Part shown: one piece after another, positions 34,188 through 43,456 of the stretch | Position numbering within the stretch: the stretch's first letter is position 1 | Layout of the letters: each line of letters starts with the position of its first letter | Assembly (NCBI RefSeq): GCF_000257665.1 | Contig: NZ_AJKR01000002.1 | Coordinates: 496,001 to 560,000, forward strand | Length of the DNA stretch: 64,000 bases | DNA from: Candidatus Aquiluna sp. IMCC13023 | Lineage (GTDB): Bacteria > Actinomycetota > Actinomycetes > Actinomycetales > Microbacteriaceae | Direction of reading: 5' to 3' | Position numbers and translations under genes: made by a program | Notes under the pieces: model-generated | Seen by the model: only the letters and a program-made list of their open reading frames with translations | Told to the model about the DNA's origin: nothing | Database searches by the model: none

Positions 34188-34203
34188 TCGAAATTTTGTT
34201 CGA
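34188..34203 (+). promoter_or_regulatory. LexA-binding SOS box upstream of recA
   Basis: TCGAAATTTTGTTCGA matches the actinobacterial LexA operator (TCGAAC-N4-GTTCGA) at 11 of 12 defined bases. It lies about 130 bases before the recA ATG. The lexA gene is in the same window. Confidence 0.85.
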
Positions 34204-34333
34204 ACGCCTATTGTTACTAACAGCTAAGAGTTTCTAAGACTTATCAAGAGGTTTCTTGCCAGGTCTGCAAAATGTCTTAGACGGAGCGTAGCTTCGTTGT
34301 AAACAAGGCGCCAGGCGTCGGAAAGAGGTTGTA

Positions 34334-39817: not shown

Positions 39818-41251
39818 ATGGAACCAGAATCTACTATCGACCGAATTTTACGCCGCGGCTCCCTAGCGCCCGCGTCCGAGTATGACGGCGACCAGCTCGA
39901 GCTGGAAGAGCGGGCGTCGCTTAGACGAGTCCCCGGGCTTTCGACCGAACTAGAAGATATTTCAGAGGTCGAGTACAGACAGCTGCGCCTCGAAAAGGTG
40001 GTCCTAATTGGTGTTTGGGGGACTGGCACAGTGACCCGAGCCGAAAACTCGCTCCGTGAACTGGCTGCCCTTGCCGAGACTGCTGGAGCTGAAGTGCTGG
40101 ACGGACTTCTGCAAAGACGCGCAAAGCCCGACCCCGCGAGTTACTTTGGAAAGGGAAAAGCAGAAGAGCTCAGGGAGTTAGTCAAGGAAGTTGGCGCCGA
40201 CACCGTCATAGCTGATGCCGAGCTTGCCCCATCGCAGCGAAGAACCCTGGAAGACATAGTCAAGGTCAAGGTAGTGGACCGAACTGCGATCATTCTTGAT
40301 ATTTTTGCCCAGCACGCCAAGAGCAAAGAAGGAAAAGCCCAAGTCGAACTTGCGCAGCTTGAGTATCTACTCCCAAGATTGCGCGGTTGGGGCGAGTCGA
40401 TGTCCAGGCAAGCCGGAGGCCAGGCTGCCGGTGGTGTTGGAATAGGGTCGCGTGGGCCCGGTGAGACCAAGATCGAACTTGATAGAAGACGAATCAACAC
40501 CAAGATGGCCAAATTGCGTCGTGAAATTGCCTTGATGAAGAGCGCTCGAGATACCAAAAGACTCAAGCGGGAAAAAGCGAGAGTGCCTCAGGTGGCAATC
40601 GCCGGCTACACCAACGCAGGAAAATCCTCTCTGCTTAACAGGCTCACCAAGGCCGGTGTTTTGGTGGAGAACGCACTTTTTGCGACTCTTGACCCAACAA
40701 TCAGGAGGCACGAGACACCGGACGGAAGAAGTTATACGCTTGCCGACACCGTTGGTTTTGTGCGCTCGTTACCTCACCAATTGGTCGAGGCATTTAGGTC
40801 TACCCTCGAAGAAATTGCGGGTGCAGATTTGATTGTTCATGTCGTGGACGCGACCGACCCCGACCCACTCGGACAGATCCAAACCGTCCGCCTAGTAGTC
40901 GCCGAGGTAGATGCTTCCGCAATCGAAGAGTTGATTGTTTTCAATAAAGCCGATTTAGTTTCCGAAGAGGAGCACATCAGGCTGCGAGGCCTTTGTCCCG
41001 GGGCATTTTTAGTGTCTTCGAGGACGGGCCTAGGTATCGCAGAACTTGAGGCCGCCATTGCGTCTTCATTGCCCCGACCAGAGGTCTTGTTTGACGGGCT
41101 GATTCCCTATGACCGCGGAGATTTAGTGTCAAGAATTCACGTGGCCGGAAAAGTGCAGTCCATTGAATACGTAGAGGGTGGTACCAAGGTCAAAGCGTTG
41201 GTGCGGGAAGACCTAGCTGCGGAATTGGCAAGCCTTACTAGACGGCCCTAA
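39818..41251 (+). CDS. hflX: GTPase HflX
   Basis: Ribosome-associated GTPase of 477 residues. The N-terminal HflX domain and coiled-coil (with the glycine-rich [20 protein letters not shown] linker) precede the G domain: G1 GYTNAGKS at 263-270, G3 DTVGF, G4 NKAD. HflX splits or rescues stalled ribosomes in other bacteria. TAGTCT (39803-39808) nine bases before the ATG could give a near-leaderless start. Its last 14 bases overlap the 3' end of lexA on the other strand. Confidence 0.95.
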
Positions 41252-41858
41252 GGACAGCAACTACCTTGCCGAGAATTACGGCGTGCTCCCCAGGAATTGG
41301 CTCGAATGCCGAGTTTCTTGGAAGCAACCAGGTGTTTCCGTCGCGTTGTTTGAACATTTTGACTGTCGCCTCTTCTTCGAGCATTGCGGCTACTATGTCG
41401 CCGTTCTCAGCGGTCTGCTGCTGACGAACCACTACCCAGTCGCCGTCACAAATAGCGGCATCAATCATTGACTCTCCGACGACCTTTAGCAAAAACAAGT
41501 CGCCCTGCCCCACAAGCTGGCGGGGGAGAGCAAAGACATCTTCAACGTTTTGTTCTGCCGTTATCGGACCACCGGCTGCGATTCGACCTACAAGCGGAAC
41601 CATCGCCGCGTCGGGGTTGATGATTTCTCCGGCTGGCTCTAGTCCTAGCAAGTCGATTGTTCGAGGGCGTCTTGGATCTCTACTAATAAATCCAAGAAGC
41701 TCGAGCTTGTTTAGTTGATGAGAGACGCTCGCCGTTGAGGATAGCCCGACGGCCTCACCAATCTCTCTCATTGAGGGCGCGTAATTGCGGCCAGCCATCG
41801 ATTCGGCTATGACAGTGAGAATTCTCTGCTGAACATTAGTCAAGTTCGAGGTGTCCAT
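41238..41858 (-). CDS. lexA: SOS repressor LexA
   Basis: Repressor of the SOS response, 206 residues. The N-terminal winged helix-turn-helix has [24 protein letters not shown] (27-50). The self-cleavage site is A95-G96 (in GRIAAGGPI), and the catalytic Ser-Lys pair is S130 (VGESM) and K167 (ATVKMF), 37 residues apart as in E. coli. The start is an ATG with GAAGGGG upstream. An operator half-match lies in its own promoter region, consistent with autorepression. It is divergent from the LysM gene. Confidence 0.96.
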
Positions 41859-41906
41859 GCGTGCCCCTTCTTCAAAATGTCTGAGGGTAGCTGTTTACTA
41901 CCTGTA

Positions 41907-41922
41907 TCGAAACTGTATTCGT
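41907..41922 (-). promoter_or_regulatory. LexA-binding SOS box at the lexA promoter
   Basis: TCGAAACTGTATTCGT (plus strand) matches TCGAAC-N4-GTTCGA at 9 of 12 defined bases. It lies about 50 bases upstream of the lexA start, next to a minus-strand TATAAA (41924-41929) that could be the -10 box. A weaker match than at recA fits a repressor that should respond early. Confidence 0.7.
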
Positions 41923-41981
41923 ATTTATAGCAAATACCAAACACATTTTCGATAAAGCCACAAATATTCATTCAGAAATGC

Positions 41982-42025
41982 TTGCTTTTTCGAAAAGGCT
42001 GCGTAAACTTAGAACAAGTGTTCGA
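41982..42025 (+). promoter_or_regulatory. SOS-controlled promoter of the LysM gene
   Basis: TTGCTT (41982-41987) and TAAACT (42004-42009), 16 bases apart, form a plausible -35/-10 pair. The LexA box TAGAACAAGTGTTCGA (42010-42025), 11 of 12 matches to the consensus, starts at the base after the -10 box and would cover the transcription start. Confidence 0.8.
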
Positions 42026-42054
42026 AACAAGTATTCGGACTGAAGGGACACAAC

Positions 42055-42348
42055 ATGTTAGTTCTTGGAAACTATCGGCTTACAAATCCGAGGCGTTTGG
42101 TACGCGCAGTTGTAATTCTCGCTCTCAGTTTTGCAATCAGCATCTTAGGAATCACCGGCTCTTTTGCTGGAAGCGCCCCTGGGGGAACTCTTGAATTTGT
42201 CACGGTGCAGTCAGGTGACTCGCTTTGGGAGCTGGCGGACAAGTACGCTCCTTCTCAGGATCCCAGAGACTGGATTGCGCGGGTTGTTATGGTAAATGCT
42301 CTTGAAACTGTCGAATTGACTCCTGGTCAGCAAATAGCTCTTCCCTGA
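42055..42348 (+). CDS. LysM-domain membrane protein, likely SOS cell-division inhibitor (YneA/DivS/ChiZ type)
   Basis: A 97-residue protein with one N-terminal membrane helix (about 16-36) after a basic start (RRLVR), then a LysM peptidoglycan-binding domain from about residue 47 (VQSGDSLWELADKYA) to the C-terminus. It is divergent from lexA and has a strong LexA box over its promoter. The same position and architecture hold for Bacillus YneA, Corynebacterium DivS and Mycobacterium Rv2719c (ChiZ), which delay division during DNA damage. Sequence similarity outside LysM is too low for certainty; position and operator carry the call. Confidence 0.78.
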   Translation: MLVLGNYRLTNPRRLVRAVVILALSFAISILGITGSFAGSAPGGTLEFVTVQSGDSLWELADKYAPSQDPRDWIARVVMVNALETVELTPGQQIALP

Positions 42349-42373
42349 GTCGCTTGGGTTCCAACTCATTCGC

Positions 42374-42385
42374 TAATCTTGAGGG
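42374..42385 (+). promoter_or_regulatory. Leaderless-type -10 box for hisC
   Basis: TAATCT (42374-42379) is followed by exactly six bases and the GTG start of hisC. A TGAGGG immediately before the GTG is too close to act as a Shine-Dalgarno sequence. Confidence 0.5.
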
Positions 42386-43456
42386 GTGACTAACCTCGAT
42401 GATCTGCCCATACGACCAGACTTGGTCGGACAGCTGCCCTACGGCGCCCCTCAAGTCGATGTTCCAATCAGACTTAATGTAAATGAAAACACCTTTGGAA
42501 TTCCCGAAGATGTCGCGCTGAGAATTGTCCAGCGAACTGCGGAAGCCGCTCTAACACTTAACAGGTATCCCGATCGTGAGTTCATGGAGCTTCGTAAAAT
42601 GCTCGCTGAGTTCCTGGGTGGAAACTTGGCGGCAGAGCAAATTTGGGCTGCAAACGGCTCGAATGAAATTTTGCAGCAGTTTTTTCAAGTCTTTGGGGGT
42701 CCAGAGGCAAAGGCAATGAGCTTTGGTCCTACTTATTCGATGTACGCGAACATTGCAAGAACGACCCTAACCGAATACCAGTTGCTTCCCCGGCTCGATG
42801 GTTATTCTCTGACCAGTGAGTATGTGCGTGAGGAAATCCAAAGAGCGGAGCCTCAAGTAGTTATCCTTTGTTCGCCAAATAACCCAACTGGAACCGGTAG
42901 CTCGCTGGACGTAATTGAAGCGGCCTACGAGAGCTTCGAGGGAATGCTGCTTATTGATGAGGCCTATCAGGAGTTTTCTGACTCTCCAAGCGCTATATCG
43001 CTACTACCTGGACGACCACGTCTAGTAATAAGCCGCACCATGAGCAAGGCATTCGCCTTTGCCGGAGCGAGGGTTGGCTACATGGCTGCCGATGCTGCCG
43101 TGGTTGATGCCATGCGCATTGTTAGGCTGCCGTATCACTTGTCTGCACTGACTCAGGCGGCAGCCATGGCGGCGCTGGAGACAAGCGGTCAACTGCTGGC
43201 TAATATCGAGCAGATTAAAGTTCAGCGCGATCGAATTATGGTCGGCGTCTTAAAAATGGGCCTCAAGCCCTTGCCATCGGATGCGAACTTCGTCCTAATT
43301 CAAGGGTTCGAAGACACTCAAGTTATTTTTGAGAGCCTGCTGGCCAAGGGGATTATCGTGAGGGACATCGGAATTCCGGGCTGTCTGCGAGTCACAGCCG
43401 GAACCGAAGCCGAGACCACAAAATTACTTGGCGAGCTGGCATTGCTGCTTGACTAA
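42386..43456 (+). CDS. hisC: Histidinol-phosphate aminotransferase
   Basis: PLP enzyme (356 residues) that makes histidinol phosphate. Substrate and cofactor motifs are LNVNENTFG, AANGSNEI and the Schiff-base lysine K221 in SRTMSKAFAFAGARVGY. It opens the hisC-hisB-hisH-priA run. hisD, which normally precedes hisC in Actinobacteria, is not here. Confidence 0.94.
   Translation: MTNLDDLPIRPDLVGQLPYGAPQVDVPIRLNVNENTFGIPEDVALRIVQRTAEAALTLNRYPDREFMELRKMLAEFLGGNLAAEQIWAANGSNEILQQFFQVFGGPEAKAMSFGPTYSMYANIARTTLTEYQLLPRLDGYSLTSEYVREEIQRAEPQVVILCSPNNPTGTGSSLDVIEAAYESFEGMLLIDEAYQEFSDSPSAISLLPGRPRLVISRTMSKAFAFAGARVGYMAADAAVVDAMRIVRLPYHLSALTQAAAMAALETSGQLLANIEQIKVQRDRIMVGVLKMGLKPLPSDANFVLIQGFEDTQVIFESLLAKGIIVRDIGIPGCLRVTAGTEAETTKLLGELALLLD

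Follow-up and report, generated by a model that had tools for sequence, protein, structure and literature searches.

The lexA-LysM locus of Aquiluna

The DNA considered here (the window) is a 64-kb stretch, positions 496001-560000 of contig C2, from the 1.36-Mb, 99.5% complete genome of an Aquiluna (Microbacteriaceae). Its open reading frames, together with domain and profile matches, place lexA and a gene for a 97-residue LysM protein back to back across a gap of 196 bp, in the divergent arrangement that an earlier note on this DNA had described. The same lexA-divergent position is seen in every genome of the genus having the LysM gene, and a genome scan recovers Aquiluna MAGs of the Microbacteriaceae as the nearest named relatives of its product (92-94% identity). 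The features of the locus, in window coordinates, are:

41241-41858, minus strand: lexA, SOS repressor, 206 aa (TIGR00498 227 bits against a cut-off of 111 bits; Peptidase_S24 and LexA DNA-binding Pfam domains)
41878-41899, plus strand: candidate PafBC-type (RecA-NDp) bipartite element, TGTCTGAG-N8-TTTACT, directed towards the LysM gene (genus alignment)
41907-41922, unstranded: LexA box 1, TCGAAACTGTATTCGT, 9/12, over the predicted lexA -10 and at the predicted distal LysM start site
41940-41912, minus strand: lexA promoter predicted from sequence (-35 TTGGTA 41940-41935, 17-bp spacer, -10 TACAGT 41917-41912)
41937-41952, unstranded: LexA box 2, CCAAACACATTTTCGA, 9/12, overlapping the predicted lexA -35
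41982-42009, plus strand: predicted proximal LysM promoter (-35 TTGCTT 41982-41987, 16-bp spacer, -10 TAAACT 42004-42009)
42010-42025, plus strand: LexA box 3, TAGAACAAGTGTTCGA, 11/12, adjoining the -10 of the LysM promoter
42055-42348, plus strand: LysM gene, 97 aa, YneA/ChiZ-type by Pfam LysM, the YneA model and predicted fold
42372-42386, plus strand: predicted leaderless hisC promoter, TAATCT-N6-GTG

LexA boxes in the intergenic region

Scoring against the 12 positions of the LexA box consensus TCGAAC-N4-GTTCGA predicts, by sequence match, three boxes in the gap and not two. The earlier note had proposed boxes shared by the two genes, an 11/12 box right after the -10 on the LysM side and a weaker 9/12 box on the lexA side (41907-41922); both are present as described, but the third (41937-41952) had escaped it. 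The -35 and -10 elements assigned to the lexA and LysM promoters are predictions. In the case of the proximal LysM promoter, the TTG of the -35 and the -10 are conserved in the genus alignment, the latter reading TATACT in many relatives. Overlap with the likely lexA -10 and -35 would explain why the boxes at 41907 and 41937 depart from the palindrome.

Only six sites with at most one mismatch to the consensus occur in the whole genome, the one at 42010 among them, and therefore about 0.001 would be expected by chance in the 196-bp gap; a chance origin of this box is thus rejected. Three of the six precede recA, the dnaE2 operon (12/12) and the LysM gene, and the other three, which fall inside genes with no part in the damage response or at the margins of such genes, were taken as chance occurrences. 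Sites scoring 9/12 are frequent (27 in 64 kb), so the case for the weak boxes at 41907 and 41937 rests on their conservation, through which alone a chance origin was rejected for them. In the intergenic alignment of 21 genus genomes, the box at 42010 scores 11/12 in all 21, and the sequence and 30-bp spacing of the other two are kept almost everywhere, the box at 41937 dropping below 9/12 in two genomes; the remainder of the gap is ~57-70% conserved. Downstream of the box at 42010 a TCG/TCGAAC half-site at 42032-42040 is conserved as well, reading ATTCGGAC in this genome and ATCGAACAG in relatives; it may be a fourth half-site for LexA.

The promoters of recA and dnaE2 provide a reference for these sites:

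34188-34203, plus strand: LexA box upstream of recA, TCGAAATTTTGTTCGA, 11/12
34270-34294, plus strand: candidate PafBC-type element upstream of recA, AAATGTCTTAG-N8-TAGCTT (sequence; pattern search)
locus L084, 1429-1478 (contig C3, ~294.8 kb): composite promoter of the dnaE2 operon, PafBC-type TGTCTTAG-N8-TACACT followed by a perfect LexA box

The recA box scores 11/12 and the dnaE2 box 11-12/12 in 12/12 genus genomes each, which validates the LexA motif for the genus. Taken together with the box at 42010, this places the LysM gene almost certainly under LexA control.

The LysM protein

The protein consists of a short, putatively cytoplasmic tail, a predicted membrane helix (residues ~12-34) and a LysM domain (~48-97), which bears out the earlier description of a 97-residue LysM protein with one membrane helix. 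Pfam LysM matches at 22.9 bits against a cut-off of 20.9, and the AlphaFold2 model has the helix at 12-34 followed by a strand-helix-helix-strand LysM domain, with pLDDT ~70-85 over most of both; the domain matches LysM structures in the PDB by predicted structure as well as by sequence. The model is consistent with a single N-terminal membrane helix and a LysM domain predicted to face the outside.

The same note saw no recognisable similarity beyond LysM and suggested a possible reduced form of the class, neither of which is supported. The NCBIfam YneA model (NF010723) matches residues 20-97 with 49 bits (E=4.4e-13), short of the 60-bit equivalog cut-off, so that on sequence the protein is best described as YneA-like, though it falls outside the YneA equivalog as NCBI defines it. 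A scan of genomes seeded with this protein alone recovered 15 actinobacterial loci, along with two Anoxybacillus proteins of 99-100 aa, both encoded divergent from lexA; the one that was run against the YneA model scored 94 bits, above the cut-off. Degeneration is rejected given the normal length, the intact gene in 21 genomes and a dN/dS of ~0.06 against close relatives, from which purifying selection follows. The actinobacterial signature DPRDWIAxVV is present, which sets the protein apart from YneA. Directly after the helix, a small-x-A motif, S36-x-A38, is invariant in the genus (21/21 proteins) and compatible with signal-peptidase cleavage.

Distribution in Actinomycetes

The arrangement reaches far beyond the genus, a conservation that the earlier note, though correct about the locus itself, had missed: members of the family are encoded divergent from lexA in 75/98 sampled Actinomycetes genomes, with a median gap of 432 bp. 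Among matches above 36 bits there are two exceptions to lexA adjacency, each on a contig separate from the one with lexA; none of the family matches below 30 bits in the class survey adjoins lexA. In 35/37 lexA-LysM gaps across the class a LexA box scores 10/12 or better, with 0.63 expected from shuffles. This indicates that lexA and its LysM partner form an actinobacterial pair that is widespread and probably ancestral, not a set of scattered analogues.

Eighteen of the sampled Actinomycetes genomes encode lexA with no match to the LysM family; many of these, coming from a few families, are large (several of 7-10 Mb). Such large genomes without the partner would agree with the statement that Streptomyces is without clear homologues of the known division inhibitors (PMC9380542).

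A candidate PafBC-type promoter element directed at the LysM gene

Beyond the LexA boxes, the gap contains a second candidate control element (41878-41899) which the earlier description of the region did not include. It reads TGTC.G[AT]G-N8-TTNNCT across the genus genomes, one of them having TGTA. In Mycobacterium tuberculosis the PafBC promoter motif is TGTCGG or TGTCAG, N10, TA-N3-T (PMC8151990), and it is rv2719c (chiZ), not lexA, that PafBC reportedly drives there (PMC8151990, Figure S6 legend). The Aquiluna element is a relaxed match (8/11), its -10 TTTACT being without A at position 2. The strict consensus has zero matches in the ~0.88 Mb of genome scanned, and the PafBC claim therefore depends on the relaxed form and on how well this form is conserved. 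A relaxed pattern built from the recA and LysM elements matched, over the same ~0.88 Mb, these two plus one site found independently, at the dnaE2 operon. There were no further matches, and reversed patterns gave none at all.

In the class as a whole, elements scoring 9/11 or better point towards the LysM gene in 27/39 gaps and towards lexA in 6/39, and those scoring 10/11 or better do so in 14/41 and 2/41, respectively, where 0.12 would be expected. Counted from the first base of the -10, a LexA box starts at a distance of 0-16 nt downstream in 17/35 cases against 5.2 expected; for the distal LysM element of Aquiluna this distance, to the box at 41907, is 13 nt. A reading of the invariant AAATGTC block as a lexA-leader element was set aside because the TGTC element, followed by N8 and a -10, recurs class-wide in the LysM direction at other distances, and also precedes recA and dnaE2.

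The candidate regulator is encoded in the genome. A tandem-ORF search located adjacent pafB and pafC genes in a pafB-pafC-(103-aa ORF)-tatA-tatC-helY-like cluster (locus L137, 2417-8058; G000 contig C3, ~82-88 kb). Both products have WYL and WCX domains and PafBC 6sj9 as best PDB match, the HTH of PafC being weak (31.6 against 32 bits). Upstream of pafB lie genes resembling an FKBP-type isomerase and a tRNA methyltransferase; no pafA was seen directly adjoining pafB.

On this evidence it is probable that PafBC also drives the LysM gene, and the conserved PafBC-type promoter element aimed at that gene is what is new here. The LexA boxes at the predicted start sites suggest a joint gating by PafBC and LexA. 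At the dnaE2 operon the -10 start is followed at 15 nt by the LexA box, and the composite arrangement is kept in genus relatives: the automatic call gives a spacing of 13-15 nt in all genus genomes but one, and inspection by eye finds it in the remaining one too. More tentatively, one might propose that in Aquiluna, and more widely in Actinomycetes, the checkpoint gene and dnaE2 have composite promoters, with PafBC as activator and LexA as repressor of one and the same start site, i.e. an AND gate, a doubtful but conceivable extension. If true, division arrest and mutagenic repair would be started only when both damage sensors agree, and not by two parallel pathways, and the LysM gene would additionally retain a LexA-only proximal promoter. 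In this compact, conserved promoter region, how LexA and PafBC share the control could be tested directly.

Two side observations concern the reference promoters. Upstream of recA, the PafBC-type element lies further downstream than the LexA box (34188-34294). The dnaE2 operon consists of a small DUF6504-like ORF followed by DnaE2; DUF6504 is usually found together with imuA/imuB, and neither was seen adjoining dnaE2 (loci L031 and L084).

Proposed mechanism and alternatives

The lines of evidence above lead to the proposal, to which we assign a probability of roughly 0.78, that the product of the LysM gene, as a protein of the YneA/ChiZ kind, inhibits division under the control of DNA damage. 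The earlier note had arrived at the same class; its LexA boxes, membrane-anchored LysM protein and lexA-divergent position stand, here in an actinobacterium with a small genome. Its comparison with DivS, the reduction and the supposed lack of similarity are not supported.

We infer regulation, topology, division block, target and removal of the protein as follows. In the undamaged cell, LexA on the box at 42010 would cover the proximal LysM promoter at its start and, on the boxes at 41907 and 41937, the -10 and -35 of lexA, keeping both genes off or low. Upon damage, RecA-driven cleavage of LexA would free both promoters, and PafBC activated by ssDNA would fire the distal promoter, at 41878-41899, in the direction of the LysM gene. 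The resulting protein of 97 aa would then be inserted via its N-terminal helix with the LysM domain outside, bind nascent septal peptidoglycan at FtsW, which the genome encodes, and stall septum synthesis until repair is complete, septal wall synthesis being taken as the target from its relatives. Thereafter it would be removed, most likely by a YlbL/SepM-type PDZ-Lon protease, possibly aided by signal-peptidase cleavage after S36-F37-A38. Such a protease is present here and in 38/39 genomes searched; it is favoured because CtpA was not found: no CtpA/Prc-type protease scored above cut-off in 39 Micrococcales genomes, the weak matches covering mostly the PDZ part, and CtpA was accordingly rejected as the recovery protease. 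Under this proposal, even the very small genomes of this lineage would have preserved a division brake reserved for DNA damage, with none of its control sites lost. Counting against it are the YneA score below the cut-off, the relaxed match of the PafBC-type element, the missing tail with D97, the missing CtpA, the chance that the helix is a cleaved signal peptide, and the report that ChiZ can do without its LysM domain.

The readings to be weighed against this one differ in what they do with the helix, the wall and the boxes. The protein might be SOS-controlled yet secreted or wall-bound, the helix being a signal peptide cleaved at S36-F37-A38|G39, and remodel or protect peptidoglycan instead of blocking FtsW. 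The invariant motif after the helix in all 21 genus proteins, with similar motifs in most relatives, speaks for this, but Bacillus-type relatives of YneA have a comparable one (VYA|S in Anoxybacillus), and B. subtilis YneA is itself cleaved, its full-length form being active, which counts against the cleaved-signal-peptide alternative. The requirement of YneA for its helix as well as its LysM domain (PMC13396833) points the same way, leaving this reading unlikely. Very improbable is a wall hydrolase that impairs division by cutting the septal wall, as has been proposed for M. tuberculosis ChiZ: ChiZ shares the gene position and the LysM domain, and the literature presents it as an enzyme that hydrolyses the cell wall (PMC3989709, PMC6851548), but the 97 residues accommodate only a LysM domain and a helix, and no catalytic domain was found.

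The slightest chance of all is given to the boxes serving lexA autoregulation only, with the LysM gene a constitutive neighbour. Two of the three boxes do sit on the predicted lexA promoter, but the best and most conserved one (42010) adjoins the LysM -10 and stands ~100 bp upstream of where lexA transcription is predicted to start, and the pair is kept across the class. The damage-controlled division inhibitor remains the preferred reading.

Comparison with known SOS division inhibitors

In Bacillus subtilis the helix of YneA binds TM7 of FtsW, and septal synthesis is stopped only if the LysM domain of YneA binds peptidoglycan (PMC13396833); D46, T47 and I81 are important for peptidoglycan binding, and ChiZ has been modelled as binding FtsW in a similar way (PMC13396833). 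By motif match only, these residues correspond to D55 (20/21 genus proteins), S56 in place of T (20/21) and I94 (21/21). YneA of Bacillus and relatives is likewise lexA-divergent, LexA-controlled and of ~100 aa with an N-terminal helix and a single C-terminal LysM domain. Two proteases are known to remove it, one of YlbL type and one of CtpA type (PMC6051672). YneA localises to midcell. Unlike YneA, the Aquiluna protein scores below the equivalog cut-off and ends at the LysM domain, without the tail bearing the turnover residue D97, whose mutation stabilises YneA; the genome has no CtpA match above cut-off, and the missing tail and missing protease may be linked. The locus differs too in its extra PafBC-type promoter element and in having hisC as neighbour instead of a recombinase gene.

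ChiZ/Rv2719c of M. tuberculosis is, similarly, an actinobacterial LysM protein divergent from lexA, with PafBC reported to drive its gene away from lexA (PMC8151990). Whereas ChiZ has a long disordered cytoplasmic region (residues 1-64; PMC7355643), only ~16 residues precede the Aquiluna helix, and Pfam, NCBIfam and fold searches gave no sign of a hydrolase catalytic domain in the Aquiluna protein. ChiZ is also reported not to need its LysM domain, unlike YneA (PMC3989709). DivS of Corynebacterium glutamicum, which the earlier note had set beside YneA and ChiZ, is an SOS-induced division suppressor encoded near lexA but has no LysM domain (PMC6851548), so the comparison fits YneA and ChiZ only. 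SosA of Staphylococcus aureus, a small membrane protein divergent from lexA that blocks septum completion, is also without a LysM domain and is turned over by CtpA (PMC6851548), in contrast to the LysM-bearing protein of Aquiluna, where CtpA was not found.

Downstream of the LysM gene, hisC is apparently leaderless with a promoter of its own, TANNNT standing exactly 6 nt before the GTG in 21/21 genus genomes (42372-42388); the his genes can therefore be independent of the putatively SOS-controlled gene upstream.
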